This document shows, piece by piece, positions 1,604 to 51,788 of a DNA stretch of 52,438 bases. Origin of the DNA: a virus; IMG/VR virus record IMGVR_UViG_3300023179_000147, positions 1 to 52,438 of that record; one strand, 5' to 3'. The number at the start of each line of letters is the position of its first letter. The stretch's first letter is position 1. A program made the position numbers and the translations under genes. The notes beneath the pieces were generated by a model. The model was not told where the DNA came from and did no database searches. It saw only the letters and a program-made list of their open reading frames with translations.

Positions 1604-4600
1604 TTATGAACAGCGCGAATTACCGCAATTTTTGCAGGTAAGACAACCCTCCTGATAGACGAGGCCGTCTTCTACTCCACAGGAAGCGCAAGTCTTATCT
1701 GACGCTGACTTAGTGCCATCGGGGATGTAGCTCTTCAACACTCGAGCCAGAGCCCTTGAGAAGCTGTACATATCACTATTCTTGTCCTTCTGCAACTGCT
1801 CACAGACATAGCTGACAGGAACTCCATGTCGCAGGGCAAGTGAAATCGTACGGGTCACTGCACCGTGATTGGGATTGTCGAATAGCTCGACCACATTCTT
1901 GAAGAGTAAGTGATCGTCATCTCCCACTGGGATTGAAAGATTGTATGTTGCGACTCCGTCCTTCTTGCCGTTCTTGAGAAGTGTGCCGGCCTTCGACTTC
2001 TTGGGCACCTCGACGTGTTGTGATAGTCCGCAGAAGACCTCATAAGGCTGCCCGTCCATCTTACCCACCAGGACGAGGTACGACTCTGAGCCATCGTGTC
2101 CACGCACGTTTATTCTATGAATATCACAAGGTAGTTCCTTTGGTCTCTTTGGCGCATGATTTTCTGTGATGGTCTTGGGTTGACCGTCAACTTTCGGCTC
2201 CTCTTTCTTGGGTGTATCGGCTACAAGGACTCCGCTTCGACAGCCGTCACGATAAACTGTGACGCCCTTGCAACCTGTCTCCCACCCCCTCATGTAGATG
2301 TCCTTAACAACATCGACGGTAGTAGAATTTGGAATGTTAGTCGTATTGCTGATTGAGTGGCAGATCCACTTTTGTGCCGCCGCCTGAAGATCGACCTTCT
2401 TGACCCAATCGATCTCATTCGCTGTGCCACCCGCATAGGGAGATTCATTGGCTTGTGCCTCGGTCTTGTGGTTAACATCCATCCACTTCTTGAAGGCGTG
2501 GTGGTAAACCATATATTCCTGCCACTTGTCACCGAGCTGGTCGACGAAGTCGACACGGACGCTTGGGTCATCACCGTTAACCTTCTTGCGCCTCTTGTAG
2601 AAGAGCATGAACGCAGGTTCGATGCCTGAGGTGGTTTGGGTGAGGACTGAGACCGAACCTGCAGGTGCCGTTGTGGTGAGTGCAATGTTGCGGCGACCAT
2701 ACTTGGTGTAAGCAGCAGCTAGATCCTCATCCTGAGACGTGACCTGCTGGATGAATGGATGGTCCTGTTCAGCTTTGAGATCGAAGACGGGAAATGCTCC
2801 ACGTTCCGCAGCCATCTGGACTGATGATTTATATGCGTTGACTGCCAAGGTGCGGTAGACTGTCTCCGTCATTTGAATGGATTTATCAGAACCATAGACG
2901 AAGTTCATGGCAGCCAAAGTGTCACCGAGAGCTGTGATGCCGAGGCCGGTGCGGCGGCCGTTGATTGCAGCCGTCTTGATCTTGCCCCATAGTTCGAGTT
3001 CTCCTCGCTTCACGTCATCGGGTTCAGGATCATTTTGAATCTTGGAGATAATCTTGTCGACAGCTTCCAACTCCAGATCGATGAGGTCATCCATTAGTCT
3101 CTGCGCCTTCTGCACCGCCTCGTTGTAACCCTTTTGGTCGAAGGATGCAGCAGACGTGAACGGATTATTGACGAAATTGTAGACATTGACGAGTAGGAGG
3201 CGGCAGCTGTCATACGGACTCAGGACGATTTCTCCGCAATTTTCGCTAAGTACTTGTATTTGTTCATTATTGTCTTCTTTCCATCCACCGAAGAAGAAAT
3301 TGTGAACATCATCGACTGTTCCGTTATACACGTCTTCGTGTCCATCGAGCTCAACAGATATGACGCGGTGATTGTGAAGCGAAGCCTCAGACTTCAGCTT
3401 CTTCCACGATGAGAAACCATTTTTTGTTCCTAACCTTGCAGAAACGTTGTTTGTCTTACACAGCTCTTCCCACTCACTGCGTAGTGGGTCTCTTCCGAGA
3501 TCAAATCGCAGCTTCGTATAGACATTCAGCTGATCAATTCTTTTCTTCGTACCTCTTTCTTCGTGCAGCTTCTGCAGTGTTGCTGCTCGAACAGAGTTTT
3601 TACCTGCCTTGCGATTCGCATAATAGTTTGAGCATGAATGACCGCAGAAAGAAATCTCTCTCCTGTCATACGCGAGCCAGAAGTTATTTTCACACCACTC
3701 ACACTTCTTCTCAATTTGCAACTCTTTATCCAAGATTCTCCACGTGTATCCTGACTCTTGAGCTTCGAGAGCTCGTGAAGCTGTTCGTGGATCTGCAGAT
3801 GTCAGCTCGCTTGCAATACCAAGATCATCAGAAATCTCAGCTGTGACCTGCGAGAATTTCTTGCCGCCGAGTCTAAAAGAGTTCAAAAGCCTAGGCAATG
3901 AATTTTGTGCAGCATAGTTCTCCCAGTCACCGCCGCTTGGACGACGACCCAGAGAAGAAGCGAGAGCTTTAATGTGATTCATCAGTTCTTCATTGCTAAC
4001 ATCGTATGCTCTTGGATTATTTTCCCCCGAGACGGATTGCGACATCTTTGCGGAGTATGCGGATAACCTCGCAGGATCTGCTTTGATCTTAAAGATGGGG
4101 TTTTTCTCGCCTCTCATCATAGAAGCATGTAGTTCCTGATGGGCTTTAAATTCCATACACTTCAAATTTTGAAGACGATTATCTTTTGAGTTAAAGTTAA
4201 CATGGTGGATGACATGCCCAGAAGGCACAGCGCCATTATGAAACTCCCAAATCAGCCTGTGCTCGGAGCGAGAGCCTGTGCTGTTTTCGATCGTCACATA
4301 GTGATTTGGATTATTAGTTCTGATAGTTGGGCTTATTTCTACGAGGGTACGCTCAGTGCGCTTTGAGATCATCAACTGATCTCCTGGTTGTAGATCCTGC
4401 ACTGTCTTCCGTGTTCCGTCACGAAGTATCATCGTGTGGTTGCCGGTCGCCTTGAAAGTGTGGCCTCCTTCGATCGTGACTTTGTAGATGGGCATCTTCT
4501 CGCCAGTGCGACGCGGGTTCCTCATGGTCTTTACAACGATCCTACCCGTGTCATTGTCGTGAGCATAGACTGGCACGTCCAAGCCAGCAGCAGCTAGGTC

Positions 4601-5530
4601 GCCGATAGAAACGTAGCCGCGGCCGTCGGCAACAGCAATCTGCGTATCATACGCAAGACACGGATTCGTCGAGACTGACTTAAACGCCTCATAGCATTCC
4701 GTCGGAGTGCGCTTCTTGACGGTATCCCAGAAGAGAAGTCCGGGCTCAGCAGATGCCCATGCCGCCTCAATGATCTCATGCCACAGCTGTTTTGCGTCGA
4801 CCCAATCCTCCACAGTGTGCTTCGCATCCTTTTGAACTGGGAAGCGCAAGTGAACCTTGCCGCCGTCCTTCACTGCCTGCATGAATTCGTCCGACAGCTT
4901 GATAGAGATGTTAGCGCCGGTGACCTTCTTGAGGTCACGCTTGATGTTAACAAAGGTGCGGATCTCGGGGTGGTGAACATCAATGGTCAGCATCAATGCA
5001 CCCCTTCTTCCACCCTGTGCCACCTCGCGGCAGGTGTTGGAGAACCTCTCCATGAAGACACCGATGCCGTCGGTGGTACGTGCTGCATTGGCCGTATAGA
5101 GGCCCTTGGGCCGGATGGTGGAGATGTCGAAGCCGACACCGCCGCGGCGCTTCATGATCTGTGCCTGTTCCTGGTCCGCCTTGAGAATCCCAGCATAAGA
5201 GTCATAGGGTGACTGGATGACGAAGCAGTTGGAGAGGGATTGGTACTGGTAGGGGTTACCGATTGCAGACATCGGAGAACCTTGCGGGACGATGCTCCAG
5301 TCGTTGAGATAACCAAAGATCTCATCTTCCGACATCGGATTGGGATATTTTGCCTCAATACGGGCAAACTCCTTGGCAAGGCGCCTGTGCATGTCTGCCG
5401 GAGTCATCTCTAGCAAATTGCCCTGTAGGTCCTTGAGTGCGTACTTGTCGACAAAGACTGAAGCGGCAAGCTCGTCTCCGCCGAAGTACTCTAGTGATGC
5501 TGCGTATGACTCTTCTCTTGTGTGTGTCAT
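1604..5530 (-). CDS. nrdJ: class II (adenosylcobalamin-dependent) ribonucleotide reductase, intein-interrupted
   Basis: Reduces ribonucleotides to deoxyribonucleotides for phage DNA synthesis. The precursor has 1,308 residues. After removal of a 474-residue intein (291-764) the mature enzyme would have about 834. Extein landmarks are SNCFV (C102), the active-site loop NP|CGEIVLSPYDSCRLL interrupted by the intein, SISNTTNIPNSTTV, and GCKGVTVYRDGCRSG. The C-terminus holds a TSCPD-type domain and a cysteine-rich ribbon (CASCG, CLTCKNCG). Such tails mark B12-dependent class II enzymes rather than NrdA/NrdB pairs, and no small subunit gene lies nearby. The ATG at 5530 is preceded by CGGAG. The helicase gene ends 22 bases upstream. 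The enzyme would need host or scavenged cobalamin. Confidence 0.95.
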   Translation of the reverse strand: MTHTREESYAASLEYFGGDELAASVFVDKYALKDLQGNLLEMTPADMHRRLAKEFARIEAKYPNPMSEDEIFGYLNDWSIVPQGSPMSAIGNPYQYQSLSNCFVIQSPYDSYAGILKADQEQAQIMKRRGGVGFDISTIRPKGLYTANAARTTDGIGVFMERFSNTCREVAQGGRRGALMLTIDVHHPEIRTFVNIKRDLKKVTGANISIKLSDEFMQAVKDGGKVHLRFPVQKDAKHTVEDWVDAKQLWHEIIEAAWASAEPGLLFWDTVKKRTPTECYEAFKSVSTNPCLAYDTQIAVADGRGYVSIGDLAAAGLDVPVYAHDNDTGRIVVKTMRNPRRTGEKMPIYKVTIEGGHTFKATGNHTMILRDGTRKTVQDLQPGDQLMISKRTERTLVEISPTIRTNNPNHYVTIENSTGSRSEHRLIWEFHNGAVPSGHVIHHVNFNSKDNRLQNLKCMEFKAHQELHASMMRGEKNPIFKIKADPARLSAYSAKMSQSVSGENNPRAYDVSNEELMNHIKALASSLGRRPSGGDWENYAAQNSLPRLLNSFRLGGKKFSQVTAEISDDLGIASELTSADPRTASRALEAQESGYTWRILDKELQIEKKCEWCENNFWLAYDRREISFCGHSCSNYYANRKAGKNSVRAATLQKLHEERGTKKRIDQLNVYTKLRFDLGRDPLRSEWEELCKTNNVSARLGTKNGFSSWKKLKSEASLHNHRVISVELDGHEDVYNGTVDDVHNFFFGGWKEDNNEQIQVLSENCGEIVLSPYDSCRLLLVNVYNFVNNPFTSAASFDQKGYNEAVQKAQRLMDDLIDLELEAVDKIISKIQNDPEPDDVKRGELELWGKIKTAAINGRRTGLGITALGDTLAAMNFVYGSDKSIQMTETVYRTLAVNAYKSSVQMAAERGAFPVFDLKAEQDHPFIQQVTSQDEDLAAAYTKYGRRNIALTTTAPAGSVSVLTQTTSGIEPAFMLFYKRRKKVNGDDPSVRVDFVDQLGDKWQEYMVYHHAFKKWMDVNHKTEAQANESPYAGGTANEIDWVKKVDLQAAAQKWICHSISNTTNIPNSTTVDVVKDIYMRGWETGCKGVTVYRDGCRSGVLVADTPKKEEPKVDGQPKTITENHAPKRPKELPCDIHRINVRGHDGSESYLVLVGKMDGQPYEVFCGLSQHVEVPKKSKAGTLLKNGKKDGVATYNLSIPVGDDDHLLFKNVVELFDNPNHGAVTRTISLALRHGVPVSYVCEQLQKDKNSDMYSFSRALARVLKSYIPDGTKSASDKTCASCGVEDGLVYQEGCLTCKNCGNSRCS
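3239..4660 (-). other. intein with HNH endonuclease domain inside the RNR
   Basis: Residues 291-764 of the RNR product form a 474-residue self-splicing intein. Block A is CLAYDTQIAV. A block-B-like ATGNHTMIL supplies the TxxH motif. Block F is DVYNGTVDDVHNFFFGG. The C-terminus reads LSEN, followed by +1 Cys. The penultimate residue is Glu rather than the usual His. In between is an HNH_3-like segment (HRLIWEFHNGAVPSGHVIHH, then NRLQNL, about 424-456). A zinc ribbon C610-x2-C613-x15-C629-x3-C633 follows. The insertion splits the active-site motif NP|CGE so that the catalytic Cys is the +1 residue. Boundaries follow from extein conservation and were checked against the codons at 4658-4660 and 3236-3241. 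Confidence 0.93.
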
Positions 5531-33112: not shown

Positions 33113-36100
33113 TCATTGCACCTGGGTCAGGTTGTTGGCCACCACGAAGTCAAGCGAGACGAACTCGATGCTCTTGGTGGGCTGGACGAAGATCTTACCA
33201 CGGATGGTGTTGTTGAGGACGTCGTCCTGGGTCGTGGTGGAAGAGTCGATCACGACCTTGAAGCGCTCGAGGCCGCTGAGCTGCTGGATCCTCTGGAGTC
33301 GTGGTGTGACGGCGGCAGAGAACCGAGCGAGGGTTGCCTCACGGTTTGGCTCAAACAGGATGGTCTGTGCGATGTCGCGGACCTGACGACGGATGTCGAT
33401 GAGGAGGCGACGGACGTTGACGCGATCGAGGGCCGAGGCGGCAACCTGAAGCGTCTTCTGACCCCACACCACGATACCACCACGGGGGTTGGTACCGCTG
33501 CGAGCGGCGCCCGGGAAGGCAACGATCGGGTTGATTGAGGAGTCGTAGAGGGTATCCATATCAGACTGGCTTAGTCTGACTCTGGGCTCTAGGGCGACGT
33601 CAGGTAGTGCACCGCGGGTGAAACCTGCGGGAGCGAACCAAGGATGACCGACTGCGTCGTTGAGTGACAGAGCAGAGAGCACAAGCACTGATGGAGGCGC
33701 CTGGATGTTGACTCCGATTGGGTCTCTGTAGAGCACGTCTGGGAAGTATGCTGCTGCAAACGATGAATCTACTGAGCGGTTATTGAACTGCGAGACCGTG
33801 GTAGTAACCGAAGGTAGCATCGTATCATCTGTGACCGGGTTGTCATTCTCGTCATGCTGCTCGATATCCATGATGTAGAGAGCATCATAACGATCCATGA
33901 CAGCTAGTGTCGCAGTGTCGGTAACGATGGGCTCACGGATACCAGGTATCGCAAGAAGCTGTATATCGAGATTGACGACGTTAGCCATCACGTCAAGTGC
34001 CTTGAGATAGGTACGAACCGTTGGGCCGTCCTGTAGGAGTCGACCGGCAGCGTTCATGTCAGCGTGTGCAGCGTTATCACTGAGGGACGCTTCATCATTA
34101 TTGAAGATATTGACACCGTCAAATCCACCCTGCATGATGCATGAGAACTTAGCAAATTGTCTATTTGCAGACACTTTGAGGTCTTCGACTTTCAAGCCCC
34201 TGACCTTGTTCTCGTCGCCCTTGCCGTCTGATGCGACACCAGAGAGATCAACTGATCCCGGATTGCCATTACGAGCATATACAGCTTTGACCCACTTGGT
34301 GGGATCGGCGAACCCGCCGCTTGCAGTCGATCCAGTTACAACCTGCACGTTCTCAAGCGAGAAGAAGTTGTTACAGAAACGATCTGAATCTATAACCCCG
34401 AGTGCAGCAGTGTCAGGCTGCCCTGAGTTGCTGCCCGTGATGAAATGGGCGGCGCCCACTGCAAAATTAGGGAAGTACTTAGCAAACGATTTGAGTGAAT
34501 TGTTCGGAACAATGCTGTTGTTCTTCTTGAGAAGAGAGTCGGGATGCTCAAACTGGGCGCCCCAGTAAAACTTAGGCTCTACTTGCTCCTTTGTCGTCCA
34601 TTCAGTCGATAGAGTGACCTTGCGACGGAACGGAAGTGGAGGAGTCAAAGATCTCTTGAGGGTGTCAGCATCAAGTAGTGCAGAAGCATTGACACCGCCG
34701 ACAGTGGGAAGGGGAGCCGAACCGCTTGTAACCAAGTGGCTAATACCACGGAAGCCCATTGGAAGTGCTGATGGATCAACGAATCCGTTGACCACGTCTG
34801 GATGCACTTCTACACGGACGTAATTTGAGCGGTTGGGATAATTGCCTTCTACTACGAGCTTCTGTGAATCTTCCTCACGATCGAAGTCATAGTAAGCGTA
34901 TATATCGCCGATTACCTTTGCAATATAGCGATCAGACGACGGATCTAGGTTCACACCGTTGAAGACTTCGTTGGGAAGGTTCTTCTTGTCAAGATCACGA
35001 TCTGTCCAATCACGAAGCACGACGTTGAAAGATCCGTATTTGTTGAGCGGATCAGTCGATGGAGTGATGTTCTCAATTGCAACCTTGAAGTTAGTCGATG
35101 CACTGGAGCCATCATCAAGTGTGTGTAGTCTAAAGAGATCCTGTGGTCTGCCGCCGAATTTTTGTGAAACCATCCAAGGCGACACAGCGTGACCGAATCG
35201 ATCCTTGAACGACTCATAATTTGGCACAGTCGACGTCGAGGTGTCATACGGGACCGATGATGATACGACGAAAGCTACGGGCTCGGCGCCGGCATTCCCG
35301 ACTATCGCAGAGTTCAATGAGTCAGGAATGAGGTTCGTACCCGTGACAGTAGCCAAGGAAGGATGGATGTCCCAATTAGCGTACAGATAGTGTCCAGCAA
35401 CTTCGCTCTTAAGCGGATCAGTGTTCAGGGTTTTAGCAAAGTAGTTGTTGGATGTCGGATCAAAAGAAGCTGTGATGACGTTTGGATATTTTACATCTAA
35501 ACCCTTATGTCCGTTGAGGAATAGAGTGAACTCCTGCTTTGGGCTTCCGTTGTTTGATAGGACGACTGAACCCACTGTGCCACCCTTCGTAGCATATAGC
35601 GTATTGCCCACTGCGTTTGCTAGGGGAGCTGAGCTGTCAGAACCCGGGACAGAAGACGATAGGCTGATCAGAACGCCTGAAGGCGCCATGAGAACGCCAC
35701 GGACTATTGGAAGCGCGTCTGAAACACCGGGCGTAACAGAACCAGGCCCCTGTAGCCCAGCCTCACTGAAGTAAGTTGATCCTGCTGATTCAGACATGAA
35801 ACAACCCAAGAAGTAAGTCCTGCCGGGTTGACCGTTAGAATTTGCAAGAGCATTGGGTAGAATCGCACCTAGATCGCCACGGCTCTTATCAGTGTTGGGT
35901 AGCTCGGATCCGACCTTGAAGCCGGCAGAATTTACGAATCCCGTTGCGTCTCTCTTACGACCGTCACCGACGCCGAGAACCCTAAGATACGTAACCGACT
36001 GTGCATTTCGTAGCCACTCAATGACGGCCAGCGGTCCAAACTTCTTACCATCTGTTGTCCCAAACTTAGAGTACCAATCTGATAAATTACCGACGGTGAT

Positions 36101-36235
36101 TGGGACAAACGCAGGACCTTTCATCGAAGTTCCAACAATACCTGCAGGAACACCGGAAGGTTGCTGTGTTACTGGACTAGAGATGTCAATCTCCCTTGCT
36201 GTCACTCCTGCGCTTCCAAATTTTAGTTGTGCCAT
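33113..36235 (-). CDS. tail sheath protein, paralogue 1
   Basis: A 1,040-residue contractile-sheath subunit, longer than T4 gp18 (659) because of large inserted surface domains. The N-terminus reads REIDISSPVTQQPSGVPAGI and GPAFVPITVGNLSDW. The conserved C-terminal sheath domain contains GGIVVWGQKTLQV, SALDRVNVRRLLIDIRRQV and IRGKIFVQPTKSIEFVSLDF. These elements match the second sheath gene at 36275 nearly residue for residue, while the centre differs. The frame ends just before a stem-loop. It is translated from a transcript shared with the upstream sheath gene or from a weak promoter in the 39-base gap. Confidence 0.95.
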   Translation of the reverse strand: MAQLKFGSAGVTAREIDISSPVTQQPSGVPAGIVGTSMKGPAFVPITVGNLSDWYSKFGTTDGKKFGPLAVIEWLRNAQSVTYLRVLGVGDGRKRDATGFVNSAGFKVGSELPNTDKSRGDLGAILPNALANSNGQPGRTYFLGCFMSESAGSTYFSEAGLQGPGSVTPGVSDALPIVRGVLMAPSGVLISLSSSVPGSDSSAPLANAVGNTLYATKGGTVGSVVLSNNGSPKQEFTLFLNGHKGLDVKYPNVITASFDPTSNNYFAKTLNTDPLKSEVAGHYLYANWDIHPSLATVTGTNLIPDSLNSAIVGNAGAEPVAFVVSSSVPYDTSTSTVPNYESFKDRFGHAVSPWMVSQKFGGRPQDLFRLHTLDDGSSASTNFKVAIENITPSTDPLNKYGSFNVVLRDWTDRDLDKKNLPNEVFNGVNLDPSSDRYIAKVIGDIYAYYDFDREEDSQKLVVEGNYPNRSNYVRVEVHPDVVNGFVDPSALPMGFRGISHLVTSGSAPLPTVGGVNASALLDADTLKRSLTPPLPFRRKVTLSTEWTTKEQVEPKFYWGAQFEHPDSLLKKNNSIVPNNSLKSFAKYFPNFAVGAAHFITGSNSGQPDTAALGVIDSDRFCNNFFSLENVQVVTGSTASGGFADPTKWVKAVYARNGNPGSVDLSGVASDGKGDENKVRGLKVEDLKVSANRQFAKFSCIMQGGFDGVNIFNNDEASLSDNAAHADMNAAGRLLQDGPTVRTYLKALDVMANVVNLDIQLLAIPGIREPIVTDTATLAVMDRYDALYIMDIEQHDENDNPVTDDTMLPSVTTTVSQFNNRSVDSSFAAAYFPDVLYRDPIGVNIQAPPSVLVLSALSLNDAVGHPWFAPAGFTRGALPDVALEPRVRLSQSDMDTLYDSSINPIVAFPGAARSGTNPRGGIVVWGQKTLQVAASALDRVNVRRLLIDIRRQVRDIAQTILFEPNREATLARFSAAVTPRLQRIQQLSGLERFKVVIDSSTTTQDDVLNNTIRGKIFVQPTKSIEFVSLDFVVANNLTQVQ

Positions 36236-36274: not shown

Positions 36275-39200
36275 TCAAACGAACTGAACACCACTATTTG
36301 TAATGACAAAGTCGATGGCGATATACTCAACGACTCTCGTCGGCACTACGACGATTCTTCCGTTGAGCTTGTTGAGGTCTGTGTCCTCTTGAGTGTTGTT
36401 CGACTCATTGCAGACCACCTGGAACGCCTCAATTCCTGCTTGTGCCTGGATGAGACCAAGCTGGAACGATGCGTCTGCAACAAACTTGTTGCGAACTGCG
36501 GGTGTGTTCTGCTCAAAGACAATCCTCTGTGCAATGCCGATGATGATACGCTTGATCTCTAGCATCAAGCGGCGGACGTTGACACGGTCGAGAGCTGACT
36601 TATTGACCTTCAGCGTCTTCTGTCCGTATATCACGAATCCCAGACGAGGGAACGACGCAATCGGATTGATGCGCGACTCGTACAAGCGATCACGGTCAGG
36701 AACGTTGAGTCTAACCGCGACGTTAGACACGAAGTCGAGGGCCGCGCGATTGAAACCGGCTGGTGCGAACCAAGGGTACGATACACGGTCGTTGAAAGCA
36801 AGGGCGCCGAGTGCAGCGACCGATGCGGGCACCTTTACCCTGCGACGATTAGTTGCATCATCGATGAATATGTCGGGGTAATAAACTGCTGCGTAGTCGT
36901 TGTCGATCGATCTTGTGTCAAAGTCTGCAGCTGTGAGGTTGATGTTTGGCTTGGCAGATGAATCATCGTACAGGCGAGATCCACCGTCGTCGTACGATGG
37001 AACATCCATCACATACACTGCAAGGCCATAATCTCGAACTTTCTTCATCGTTAGGTCAGTGATGTATGGTTCGCGAATGCCAGGGATTGTAAGTATGTTG
37101 TTGTTTGCCTCGAGCGGGTTTGTCATAACATCGACTGCTGCAAGATACGATGCAACACCATTGTTAGAGACGTCCTCGCCAGAAGGATTACTCAAGAATC
37201 CTGCTGGGACGAACCCAGGTGAAGCTCCTCCATTGACGTCGAACGATACAGACTTATCATTGAGTCGGCGAGCATCACGGTTTAGGAAGTTAGTTCCATC
37301 AAACCCGCCGTACATGAAGTTAGTGAATTTCATGTATGAAGAAAAGCGGTTGAATTGAGAGGGCGTGGCAGTCGACAGAAGCGTGGCAAAAGTTATTCTA
37401 TTGCTGCCGTTGTCGTTCCACGTGTAATTTGTGTTATCGAGTTTAGCATTCCTGATATAGGCAGCCTCTTTCATGTGTGTATTGACTGATGCAGTGATAT
37501 CAGCAACGCTACCGTTCCCAAGAACTACCTTAGATAATGTAAACTTGTTGTTATTGACGACGTCTGCGTTAGACCCAGTGACAAGAGCGTCGAGCTTGTG
37601 AATGCCAACAAATCTAGTCAAACCCTCAAGGAGATTGTTCTTCTCACTACTCACGTTAGCGTTTCTAACGTCAGTAGAATACGGGTCAGAAGTCACGCTG
37701 CTTCTTTCAAACATAGCACCCCAGTAATATGCTGAATTAGCGTGCTCAGACGGACCAGCAGCTCCTGCAAGTCCTGACGTGGCAGTCTCGCCGCGAGTTA
37801 CCTTGTATCTAAGCGGAAGCGGGGGCATGAAAGACCCAGTCAAAGCTAGTGCACCGGCTGCAAGCTGGCCAGCAAGTCTAGACGCAGATGGCGACAAGAC
37901 GTCTGTGTCGGCAAGCATCGAATTGACGTTGAGCGCTTCAGGTCCGCGGAAACCGAATGGCAAAGATTCTGCGGGAATTGCTCCGGTCTCGATGGCAGGA
38001 TTCATGATGACCCTGACATACGTAGATTGGTTGTTGTACTTGCCCGTGGCGACGATTCTCTTCTCCGAGGGGTTGACTGCGTCGAAGCTATAGAAAACCT
38101 TGCGGTCGCCAATCTTCTTGGCAATGTAATTCTCTGAGCTTGGGTCGAGGCTGCAATTTGAGAACTGCTCTATGACCTTGGGCGTCGTGTCTGTGTCATT
38201 CCAGTCACGAATCTGCACGTTGAACGTTCCGTGCTTATTTGAGTCGTTGGTTGAAGCCTTGACGTTACTAATCGAGATCTTATAGAGTGAATTTGCATAC
38301 TCACCGTCGTCGATTGACTCAAACTTGAAGAGATCATATTCCGTGGTGCCGAAAGGCTGAGAGATAAAATACGATGACGCAGGAGCCTTGAAACGTGTAT
38401 CGTAAGACCCAAAGACCTCACGGAAGAACCGGTTTGGGTTACCGTCATTAGAGTGATTAGACGATCCGCTAAGTATGGCAACTGGGTAGGATGAACTTAC
38501 CCAGGCAACGTTCACGTCAACTGCAAAATCAGCGTGGAGATAGTGTTGCTCTTGGACAAACTTATCAGGATCTGTGTTGAGAACCTTACCAAAGTAATCT
38601 TTGCTTGATGGATCGAACGAGGCGGTAAAGACCTTGATACCAGGAACAGAGTCTGTCGTGCAGAAAGAAGATCCAAGCGAAGAAGAAACTAGAAGCTTGA
38701 ACTTTCCGAAACTGTCAACTGTTGTGCTATCATTGACGGCTGAGCCGACCGTAGAAGGGACCTGTGTCGACAAGGGTAGAACCATCACCCTTGAAGTCTT
38801 GGGAGTCATTACGAGACCCCTTACTAAATTAACAGTGTCACTGGTGACCGAATCATTGTCAACAAACATTGGCATGCCGAAAGCAGCATTGGTCGATAAA
38901 GCGTGCTTGGCTGTCAAGAACTGAACGACACCTGAATCCCTTTTATCTGAGACACCAGCGCTTGCCGATCCCGACAGGATAAACCCTGCGTTCTTGACTG
39001 TCCCGTAATCAGCAGTGTTAGAGATGTCTGCATCAGAAGCATTAGCACCAGCGCCAAGAACTCTCATGTATGTGAGAGCTGAGCGATGCTTCAAGAACTC
39101 ATTCACTGCGTAAGGACCGAAGTGTTTTGGATCAAGATTACCAAACTTCTGAACAAATTCGTTCATATTTGCAACGGTAACGGGAACGAAAGCGGGACCC

Positions 39201-39316
39201 TTGTTAGCCGTGCCAATGACTGCAGCGGGTACGCCGACGGGGCCTGTAGCTGCAGGAGCGGAAAGGTCAATCTCACGCTCGTAAAAATTGGGCGACTTGA
39301 ATGTCTGCTCAGCCAT
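36275..39316 (-). CDS. tail sheath protein, paralogue 2
   Basis: A 1,013-residue second sheath subunit. It keeps the N-terminal REIDLSAPAATGPVGVPAAV and GPAFVPVTVANMNEF and the C-terminal GQKTLKVNKSALDRVNVRRL, IAQRIVFEQN and LNGRIVVVPTRVVEYIAIDF, but its central region is unlike paralogue 1. AAGGAGATCAGATA precedes the ATG. The pair may assemble as a mixed sheath, or one copy may form a specialised part of it. Duplication followed by divergence is the simplest explanation. Confidence 0.95.
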   Translation of the reverse strand: MAEQTFKSPNFYEREIDLSAPAATGPVGVPAAVIGTANKGPAFVPVTVANMNEFVQKFGNLDPKHFGPYAVNEFLKHRSALTYMRVLGAGANASDADISNTADYGTVKNAGFILSGSASAGVSDKRDSGVVQFLTAKHALSTNAAFGMPMFVDNDSVTSDTVNLVRGLVMTPKTSRVMVLPLSTQVPSTVGSAVNDSTTVDSFGKFKLLVSSSLGSSFCTTDSVPGIKVFTASFDPSSKDYFGKVLNTDPDKFVQEQHYLHADFAVDVNVAWVSSSYPVAILSGSSNHSNDGNPNRFFREVFGSYDTRFKAPASSYFISQPFGTTEYDLFKFESIDDGEYANSLYKISISNVKASTNDSNKHGTFNVQIRDWNDTDTTPKVIEQFSNCSLDPSSENYIAKKIGDRKVFYSFDAVNPSEKRIVATGKYNNQSTYVRVIMNPAIETGAIPAESLPFGFRGPEALNVNSMLADTDVLSPSASRLAGQLAAGALALTGSFMPPLPLRYKVTRGETATSGLAGAAGPSEHANSAYYWGAMFERSSVTSDPYSTDVRNANVSSEKNNLLEGLTRFVGIHKLDALVTGSNADVVNNNKFTLSKVVLGNGSVADITASVNTHMKEAAYIRNAKLDNTNYTWNDNGSNRITFATLLSTATPSQFNRFSSYMKFTNFMYGGFDGTNFLNRDARRLNDKSVSFDVNGGASPGFVPAGFLSNPSGEDVSNNGVASYLAAVDVMTNPLEANNNILTIPGIREPYITDLTMKKVRDYGLAVYVMDVPSYDDGGSRLYDDSSAKPNINLTAADFDTRSIDNDYAAVYYPDIFIDDATNRRRVKVPASVAALGALAFNDRVSYPWFAPAGFNRAALDFVSNVAVRLNVPDRDRLYESRINPIASFPRLGFVIYGQKTLKVNKSALDRVNVRRLMLEIKRIIIGIAQRIVFEQNTPAVRNKFVADASFQLGLIQAQAGIEAFQVVCNESNNTQEDTDLNKLNGRIVVVPTRVVEYIAIDFVITNSGVQFV

Positions 39317-50028: not shown

Positions 50029-50070
50029 TAAAAAAGAATGAGACCCGATGCACTTGTGCCGCAGGTCTCA
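50029..50070 (-). terminator. rho-independent terminator of the tmRNA-containing operon
   Basis: TGAGACC (50039-50045 side) pairs with GGTCTCA (50064-50070), with an inner GCAC/GTGC helix. The minus-strand RNA then reads TTCTTTTTT (50037-50029). It lies 69 bases after the stop of the gene at 50139. Confidence 0.85.
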
Positions 50071-50138: not shown

Positions 50139-50354
50139 TTACATTCCTGAAATTATTGACATGACTGCTGTCTTCACACGCTCTTGTAGCTCACGGGGCA
50201 ATGCAGAGAGCAAAATATAAGACTCGGATCTAACGCTCTGTTCAGGAACACCCTCAGAAAAAGAACTGAGGGTAGGAACCATCACGCGCAAAGTGATGGG
50301 TGGTGGACTCTTGTCCGAAATGAGAGTATCGTATAAATCTACTTTATTAGACAT
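50139..50354 (-). CDS. small hypothetical protein
   Basis: A 71-residue protein with no recognised domain: a mixed N-terminal half with a proline-rich step (SPPPITLRVMV) and a helical end (LPRELQERVKTAVMSIIS). AAGGG precedes the ATG. It is the last gene before the terminator and starts two bases after the stop of the gene at 50357. Expressed with the tmRNA by position. Confidence 0.7.
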   Translation of the reverse strand: MSNKVDLYDTLISDKSPPPITLRVMVPTLSSFSEGVPEQSVRSESYILLSALPRELQERVKTAVMSIISGM

Positions 50355-50356
50355 GT

Positions 50357-50542
50357 TTAACCCTTGAGAAGTGATTTGGCTTCGTTCAACGCTTGTGATT
50401 GAGCAAAGAAACGCTGTCTTAGCCCAGTAAGCAATTCATTCAACTTGTGGACACCCGCCAAATCGCCAACAGCGTTACACTCGGCAAGAGCCGCCTCCGC
50501 CTTCTGGATCTCTTCTAGTAAACTGTGATTGGTTGCTGACAT
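50357..50542 (-). CDS. very small helical protein downstream of the tmRNA
   Basis: 61 residues from the ATG at 50542, preceded by AGAGGAA. The frame extends further upstream through the tmRNA 3' end, but that part is RNA, not protein. The sequence is Ala/Glu/Leu-rich and predicts two helices (LLEEIQKAEAALAEC, VHKLNELLTGLRQR), perhaps a coiled-coil hairpin. Function unknown. Confidence 0.68.
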   Translation of the reverse strand: MSATNHSLLEEIQKAEAALAECNAVGDLAGVHKLNELLTGLRQRFFAQSQALNEAKSLLKG

Positions 50543-50563
50543 ATTTCCTCTTCTCTTTAATTG

Positions 50564-50934
50564 TGGAGGTGCCCGGAATCGAACCGGGGTCCAACACAAC
50601 TCAATCATACTCCTCTTTCACAGGCTTGGAATGGATTTATCGACACCATCCTCGTCTAGAGAGTTCCAGGTTTATACCTCAGCCCGGGGCTCTCAACCTA
50701 AAAGGTCCTGGGCACCACCCTCCCAGGAAATCCACCCCAAACAACGGGGGGTAACTGCATTGTCTGGAACAATTCTTTTTCTAGGCTGTTCCCACCCATT
50801 CCTCAGGCCGCGAGGGCGAGAGGAGAGAGGCCGTTATCGTTGGCATCTAACGCCACTTGGATTGAAACCGGATCCTCGTGCACCGGTGCCTGCAGATTAT
50901 GCTCTTGTTGCGCTGTCGAAACCTTTTCACCCCC
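50564..50934 (-). ncRNA. ssrA: transfer-messenger RNA (tmRNA)
   Basis: A 371-base one-piece tmRNA that rescues stalled ribosomes and tags unfinished proteins for degradation. The 5' end GGGGGTG (50934-50928) pairs with CACCTCC (50571-50565), forming the 7-bp acceptor stem. The T-arm is CCCGG-TTCGATT-CCGGG. The 5' part has the typical GGTTTCGACAG after the acceptor. A bulged helix-2 can form between GCAGGC and GCCTGT. The tag frame at 50803-50844 reads ANDNGLSPLALAA followed by TGA, preceded by UUAGAU before the resume codon GCC. Candidate pseudoknot stems (TCCTGGG/CCCAGGA, GAGAG/CTCTC) lie after the tag. The 3' end reads ACAA after the stem, so CCA must be added. The mature 5' end overlaps the TGA of the upstream gene. 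Confidence 0.96.
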
Positions 50935-51181
50935 GAGATTTTCTTGACTTTGCTTTATTTATGTTGCTCAGATCATCCTTTAGAATTTGAATCTTGCGAG
51001 ATTCACTCTCTGTCCAGTTCTTGAACAACAGACTCTCAGCCTTCTCCTGCTCTTTCTCAAGAGCAGACAGGATGGGTTTCTTTAACTTTTCTAGAATAGC
51101 AGCATTGTCTGCTGCATCGGCTGATCTAACAAGAGTCTCATAGACTCTCAGCAGCTCTTCGGGCGCTAGTTGTACATTCAT
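50927..51181 (-). CDS. small helical protein whose stop overlaps the tmRNA
   Basis: An 84-residue, charged, probably all-helical protein (EELLRVYETLVRSADAADNA, LEKEQEKAESLLFKNW). Its TGA (50929-50927) lies inside the 5' acceptor strand of the tmRNA, so processing of the tmRNA cuts this mRNA within its last codons. The ATG at 51181 overlaps the end of the next gene upstream by 4 bases. No known family. Confidence 0.72.
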   Translation of the reverse strand: MNVQLAPEELLRVYETLVRSADAADNAAILEKLKKPILSALEKEQEKAESLLFKNWTESESRKIQILKDDLSNINKAKSRKSRG

Positions 51182-51735
51182 TCATCTTCTCCCGATGCTT
51201 GGAATCCCACACATGACCCCTGGGTAAAGAACGACGTCCACTGCTTTGGAAGCTTCTTTGCAATTTCAAATGTGTGGTATGATTCACCATCATATAGTGC
51301 AATCTTGCCTTCCCCACAGACGACTGCAGTGATACCTTCGATGATAACAGTCGAGTCATCGATCAGGGCATCGACCTTATTCTGATCGTCTTCGGTGATA
51401 TCAAACTCAAGTGTGACTTTATCACCAGTGGGTGATTTCACAAAGATGGGCTTAAGTCCATGTGCAGCTTCAGGTGTAACAAAGTAATCATAGTTAACAT
51501 ACTCTTCTGAGTCTTCATCATCTGAGTAGTCATCCTCTTCAGGAGGTCCATCGTCTTCATCGGATGAAGCAATTTCGCCCGTTGATTCTTCAGAATCATC
51601 AGGCTGCAGCACAGAATCAGCTAGCTCACTGAGAATTTCAAGAGCTTGTGATTGATGTTCACCCAACCCCTCGCCCGCTGTATTGTGGAATAGGATCCCG
51701 TATAGGAAGAGTGCTTCTTCTTTTGAGAGTTTCAT
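51178..51735 (-). CDS. acidic hypothetical protein
   Basis: A 185-residue protein with a helical N-terminus (LSKEEALFLYGILFH), a strongly acidic low-complexity middle (residues about 48-80, mostly Asp/Glu/Ser), and a C-terminal beta-rich domain of about 100 residues (VTLEFDITEDDQNKVDALID, TVIIEGITAVVCGEGKIALY). I recognise no family. AGGAG lies upstream of the ATG at 51735, but rather far (10 bases). DNA mimicry by the acidic part is possible but unsupported. Confidence 0.75.
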   Translation of the reverse strand: MKLSKEEALFLYGILFHNTAGEGLGEHQSQALEILSELADSVLQPDDSEESTGEIASSDEDDGPPEEDDYSDDEDSEEYVNYDYFVTPEAAHGLKPIFVKSPTGDKVTLEFDITEDDQNKVDALIDDSTVIIEGITAVVCGEGKIALYDGESYHTFEIAKKLPKQWTSFFTQGSCVGFQASGEDE

Positions 51736-51763: not shown

Positions 51764-51788
51764 CGGGAGCGCCATCCATGCGCTCCCG
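51764..51788 (-). terminator. hairpin after the gene at 51815
   Basis: CGGGAGCG (51764-51771) pairs with CGCTCCCG (51781-51788), an 8-bp GC-rich stem. In the minus direction ATTCTTATTTAAC follows, a weak U-rich tract. Probably a partial terminator between the genes at 51815 and 51178. Confidence 0.65.

Follow-up and report, generated by a model that had tools for sequence, protein, structure and literature searches.

Why phages carry tmRNA is an open question, and the locus studied here raises it in a specific form: the first bases of a phage tmRNA also supply the stop codon of the protein gene in front of it (gene A). We asked whether this tmRNA is real and probably functional and whether the shared stop is more than compact packing. 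The window (the whole stretch of DNA that was analysed) is a linear 52,438-base IMG/VR virus record, IMGVR_UViG_3300023179_000147. It encodes two tail sheath proteins, a head-tail adaptor, UvsX, a DnaB-type helicase, a single-strand binding protein, a DNA polymerase and a ribonucleotide reductase with an intein. The tail sheath, head-tail adaptor, UvsX and other encoded genes identify it as a 52-kb fragment of a large-genome myovirus, in agreement with the first-pass annotation, which had called the tmRNA phage-borne; UvsX relatives occur on contigs of up to 324 kb. The ribonucleotide reductase large subunit is split by an HNH-bearing intein (1604-5530, minus strand), and the tail sheath proteins are adjacent paralogues of about 1,000 aa each (33113-36235 and 36275-39316, minus strand). 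We give a rough probability of 0.8 to the explanation as a whole, namely, that the one-piece tmRNA is real and probably functional, belongs to a large-genome myovirus and is processed by the host, with gene A using its stop.

The tmRNA had been proposed from an acceptor stem, a T-arm, a tag frame and helix-2 pairing on the minus strand, with the Rfam tmRNA model and ARAGORN named as checks. All of these sequence observations stand, and both programs called a tmRNA. ARAGORN made a single call of a one-piece tmRNA (ssrA) at 50563-50934 with the tag ANDNGLSPLALAA followed by a stop, and RF00023 matched 50934-50561 on the minus strand over model positions 1-374 of 374 (82.3 bits, E = 1.7e-30; gathering score, 47 bits). 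The acceptor stem (GGGGGUG/CACCUCC) has 7 bp, all paired, including a G3-U pair of the kind typical of alanine acceptors. The tag frame has a resume codon, an A at position -4 and a hydrophobic end; an A at -4 before the resume codon is essential in E. coli (the A86 rule; PMC2481249). One detail is to be corrected: the sequence encodes A-CAA at the 3' end, not A-CCA, so that CCA would need adding. The region of PK1 to PK4 aligned poorly to RF00023, with low posterior probabilities and many non-standard pairs.

Table 1. Features of the tmRNA locus in the window
Feature	Position	Strand	Remarks
tmRNA (ssrA)	50561..50934	-	ARAGORN, RF00023 and six-phage covariation; predicted mature 5' end 50934; discriminator A 50564; encoded tail CAA, not CCA
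Acceptor stem 5' strand, GGGGGUG	50928..50934	-	pairs with 50565-50571 (CACCUCC)
T-arm, CCCGG-UUCGAUU-CCGGG	50572..50588	-	intact pairing, covariation
Tag reading frame, ANDNGLSPLALAA and stop	50803..50844	-	resume codon GCC, conserved A at -4
Acidic 185-aa gene	51178..51735	-	stop overlaps gene A start (ATGA)
Gene A, 84 aa	50927..51181	-	no Pfam match; stop is tmRNA nt 6-8
Gene B, 61 aa, MSATNHSLLEEI..LLKG	50357..50542	-	kept in all tmRNA-bearing clade members
Gene C, 71 aa, MSNKVDLYDTL..	50139..50354	-	kept in ten records
Terminator-like hairpin upstream of operon	51764..51788	-	fold z = -4.95
Terminator-like hairpin and T-run, downstream of gene C	50029..50070	-	fold z = -3.09

Next, we looked for the tmRNA in related records. 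RF00023 scored above its cut-off in 4 of 50 of them, and two more were located through the tag; altogether, a tmRNA over the cut-off was found in only 6 of the 52 related records searched besides the window, most of which are fragments. The two records found through the tag have near-identical loci, leaving five distinct tmRNA-bearing relatives. All of the relatives' tmRNAs lie near genes B and C, and their identity to the window's tmRNA ranges from 49 to 78% (49 to 85% pairwise among the six sequences). Their tags (ANDNGVAPLALAA, ANDNGIAPMALAA, ANDNGIAPLALAA, ANDNGTAVLALAA and ANDNATVLRAAA) are akin to ANDNGLSPLALAA, and neither the G3-U pair nor the A at -4 varies across the window and its relatives. 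Across the six phages, 100% of the cells of the tRNA-like domain (7-bp acceptor stem with G3-U, plus T-arm) are paired, with compensatory changes. The long helix 2 expected of a tmRNA is also present: its pairing is incomplete in any single sequence and covaries strongly across the six phages, with 63.6% of cells paired and both sides changed in 16 of 24 pairs in its main part, and 100% of cells paired in its top part. For the acceptor stem, helix 2 and T-arm together, 23 pairs were changed on both sides, compared with 9.8 in shuffles (0 of 500 reached the observed count), and sliding the pairing partners in the six-sequence alignment cut the count from 23 to 4-7. The locus is a real one-piece tmRNA, and it is conserved and syntenic in its tmRNA-bearing relatives.

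A captured host tmRNA that has become a non-functional relic is thus a very improbable reading. Patchy presence in the clade, a relative (L085) lacking the T-loop consensus and the CCA not encoded in the window would all suit such a relic, but the acceptor stem, T-arm, tag frame, G3-U pair and A at -4 are intact in the window, synteny indicates long residence, and the stems covary across distant relatives, on which ground we rejected it. In the tmRNA of L085 (1501-1871), the T-stem is intact, the T-loop region reads GGCAGCG, not UUCGAUU, and ARAGORN gives no call; the change is possibly decay or a sequence error. As for the patchiness, genes B and C are kept without a tmRNA in G007, G008 and G019. 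In G019 (L158, G019:243000-250000), a tRNA-Gln takes the place of the tmRNA between gene A and gene B, and the tmRNA of L084 is followed by three tRNAs. Together with the tmRNA-less relatives, these cases indicate that small RNA genes are gained or lost at this spot, which resembles a hot spot for such genes. A 142-aa endonuclease-like ORF, assigned by eye, lies between the tmRNA and gene B in L083, and a 309-kb relative (G010) has a large tRNA array at about 257-290 kb with three tRNA-Ala genes. Among annotated phage records, we found no DNA relative of the locus, only short fragments matching the tmRNA query and no protein relatives of gene C or of the 69-aa family described below.

The tmRNA had also been described as embedded in an operon, and it does lie among same-strand genes between two terminator-like hairpins (Table 1), in the order 185-aa gene, gene A, tmRNA, gene B, gene C. 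Gene B begins as had been noted, with its ATG at 50542 being 22 bases past the discriminator base of the tmRNA at 50564. Acidic counterparts of the 185-aa gene are found in L083, L084, L142 and L158; a protein search of IMG/VR confirmed no relative of it. Homologues of gene A occur in the tmRNA-bearing relatives and in one relative without a tmRNA, and among the tmRNA-bearing clade members only L085 has gene A downstream of the tmRNA instead of before it. A simple promoter scan, which is a weak test, gave no promoter-like site in the near upstream region and no excess relative to shuffles, and it revealed no promoter for the tmRNA within gene A.

We infer the transcription, processing and tagging of this tmRNA, and its feedback on gene A, as follows. 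The tmRNA would probably be cotranscribed with the four protein genes of the operon, and its 5' end would be cut by host RNase P, which generates tmRNA 5' ends (PMC3985003). The host would supply the CCA end, and the RNA would then be charged with alanine and delivered with host SmpB. During infection, it would rescue ribosomes stalled on broken messages and add the tag, whose ALAA end should be recognised by ClpXP-type proteases. The SmpB family (PF01668) had no match in 14 clade records, which included contigs of 213, 298, 309 and 324 kb; the window itself is a fragment. Of 14 control genomes, 10 gave a PF01668 match in the same search. Host SmpB is therefore the probable partner of the phage RNA. 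The exact clade tag pattern had no match in 84,980 bacterial and archaeal species genomes, and looser ANDNG tags occurred in Spirochaetota, Roseomonas-type bacteria (permuted), Actinomycetota and one Thermaceae genome; this was too scattered for naming a host by tag match, which we rejected.

The first-pass annotation had further claimed that the 5' end of the tmRNA covers the TGA of the gene at 50927-51181, and this was borne out. The gene A TGA (50929-50927) is nt 6-8 of the tmRNA, within the conserved tmRNA sequence GGGGN-TGA, and the last two sense codons of gene A (CGG GGG) either straddle the tmRNA 5' end or fall within it. Gene A would thus be without a stop of its own and would use the conserved UGA of the tmRNA. 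Since this stop is inside the mature tmRNA, excision would remove it: after a cut at 50934, the gene A message would end in ..AAA-TCT-C as a non-stop message, the complete product would come only from uncut transcript, and the cut message would be rescued and its product tagged by the same tmRNA. The stop lies beyond the RNA cut site, as in arfA of E. coli, the site in the window being placed by homology only. It had been argued that maturation destroys the upstream message; the position of the stop inside the mature RNA agrees with this, but the outcome would be a non-stop message rather than simple destruction.

The distance from the gene A stop to the tmRNA start was +8 in the window, -3 in L082, -5 in L084, -62 in L083 and -75 in L142. 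Within the window's clade, the overlap is therefore not conserved and occurs only in the window phage. We lean towards neutral packing as the account of the overlap, with a normally working tmRNA and little consequence when processing removes the stop. The spread of stop distances in the clade favours this account. So does the 5' end of the tmRNA, where every frame meets a stop within about 41 nt and an upstream gene losing its own stop therefore gains just a short tail. With coupled transcription and translation, moreover, the leading ribosomes could reach the end of gene A while the 370-nt RNA is still being synthesised. For the window, compaction alone is a sufficient explanation of the overlap.

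We then evaluated the overlap across IMG/VR, using complete scans for tmRNA 5' ends with the TGA, preceded by C or A, pooled with an earlier scan; these scans targeted TGA-bearing tmRNAs, and a single family makes up most of what they found. At least 69 distinct one-piece viral tmRNAs had a TGA at nt 6-8. An upstream ORF of at least 50 aa was in the TGA frame in 23 of the 69 tmRNAs listed, compared with 1 and 3 in the other frames. Most in-frame ORFs belong to a single family of proteins of about 69 aa, and three off-frame ORFs are homologues of this family ending at +27, +27 and +12. The family (L445-L524) has the motif WKxYKW..GVIxKKxRG and no Pfam match and is almost always directly upstream of a tmRNA. 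Its 60 distinct members comprise 45 that end inside the tmRNA (+8, +10, +13, +27, +40 and +41), 5 that abut it exactly, 4 with a 10-base gap, 3 with larger gaps and 3 in which no tmRNA was seen. A homologue detached from the tmRNA has its own stop (L238/L503), which supports the 69-aa gene as real. Rough trees indicated that the register changed at least 14 to 16 times and that overlap was gained or lost 6 to 8 times. That members so often end inside or against the tmRNA through this many register changes argues against neutral packing, as does a different gene that extends to +39 inside the tmRNA (L257). The persistence of the overlap in this family points to selection, suggestively and short of proof.

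Outside the 69-aa family, overlap was not significantly more frequent at tmRNAs than at tRNAs. Among those with a recognisable upstream gene, it was found in about 5 of 50 tmRNAs, the window itself included, and in 5 of 95 tRNAs (P = 0.31), a comparison in which the family exclusion is approximate because only overlapping members were removed and non-overlapping ones may remain among the 50. This closeness to the tRNA gene rate favours neutral packing, and ordinary compaction thus explains isolated cases, perhaps including the window. A ThyX gene (L285, IMGVR_UViG_3300033977_000034; PF02511, E = 9e-39) ends at the same TGA, with its final codons and stop falling within a tmRNA that has the tag ATPMAMAA. 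A 63-aa ORF ending at the tmRNA TGA (L364) and an overlap of +70 (L312) were set aside as doubtful genes.

Alternatively, the overlap may be a selected switch, in which RNase P would make the gene A message non-stop, and trans-translation would lead to degradation of the message and tagging of the product. In its converse arm, ribosomes terminating at nt 6-8 would block the RNase P site, so that gene A output would exclude tmRNA maturation and vice versa, with both responding to ribosome supply. We regard this as unlikely, with gene A lacking a known function and the overlap not being shared by the window's clade, even though the overlap recurs in at least three phage settings (the window's clade, the 69-aa family and ThyX). 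A precedent in its favour is arfA of E. coli, where cleavage produces a non-stop message that is repressed by trans-translation, which also lowers the upstream zntR through PNPase (PMC10107115). Equally doubtful is the wider proposal that in several phage lineages the tmRNA creates and clears its own first substrate, as a self-limiting switch that would couple the upstream gene to rescue. Our preferred reading remains that of a functional, host-processed tmRNA whose stop gene A uses. The overlap layout recurs in several unrelated phages and is common in one family, and it offers a concrete, cheap test of phage tmRNA as housekeeping versus regulatory circuit. Even a neutral overlap would clearly illustrate how a protein gene can take its final codons and its stop from a structured RNA.

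That phages can carry a tmRNA is already known; what is new is the stop overlap. The statement that only a few phages have tmRNA genes no longer holds: one survey gives tmRNA in 402 of 18,146 phage genomes (PMC9004378), and phage tmRNA also appears in earlier lists (PMC4131195) and in huge phages (PMC7162821). The ssrA genes of mycobacteriophages Bxz1 and Wildcat, Bacillus phage G and Methylophilales phage Melnitz are phage-carried, as here; that of Melnitz is a two-piece permuted tmRNA, whereas that of the window is in one piece. The known phage ssrA genes have other tags, and the accessible portions of PMC9004378 and PMC4131195 describe no upstream gene ending inside the RNA; the open-licence literature yielded nothing relevant on a gene-tmRNA stop overlap. 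The huge phages resemble the window's clade in being large and carrying tmRNA, although some of them encode SmpB too (PMC7162821), and none was found in the clade records searched here. The zntR-arfA system, in which cleavage strips the stop and trans-translation represses both the ORF and the upstream cistron (PMC10107115), resembles the window in layout, and repression here would follow by analogy only. In arfA, the cut is made by RNase III within the ORF, and the tmRNA is encoded elsewhere, whereas in the window 5' processing of the tmRNA itself would make the cut. A further parallel is mitochondrial tRNA punctuation, in which RNA excision sets the 3' end of the upstream message and can remove its stop. 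Mitochondria restore such stops by A addition, whereas in the window the excised RNA would itself rescue the ribosomes.
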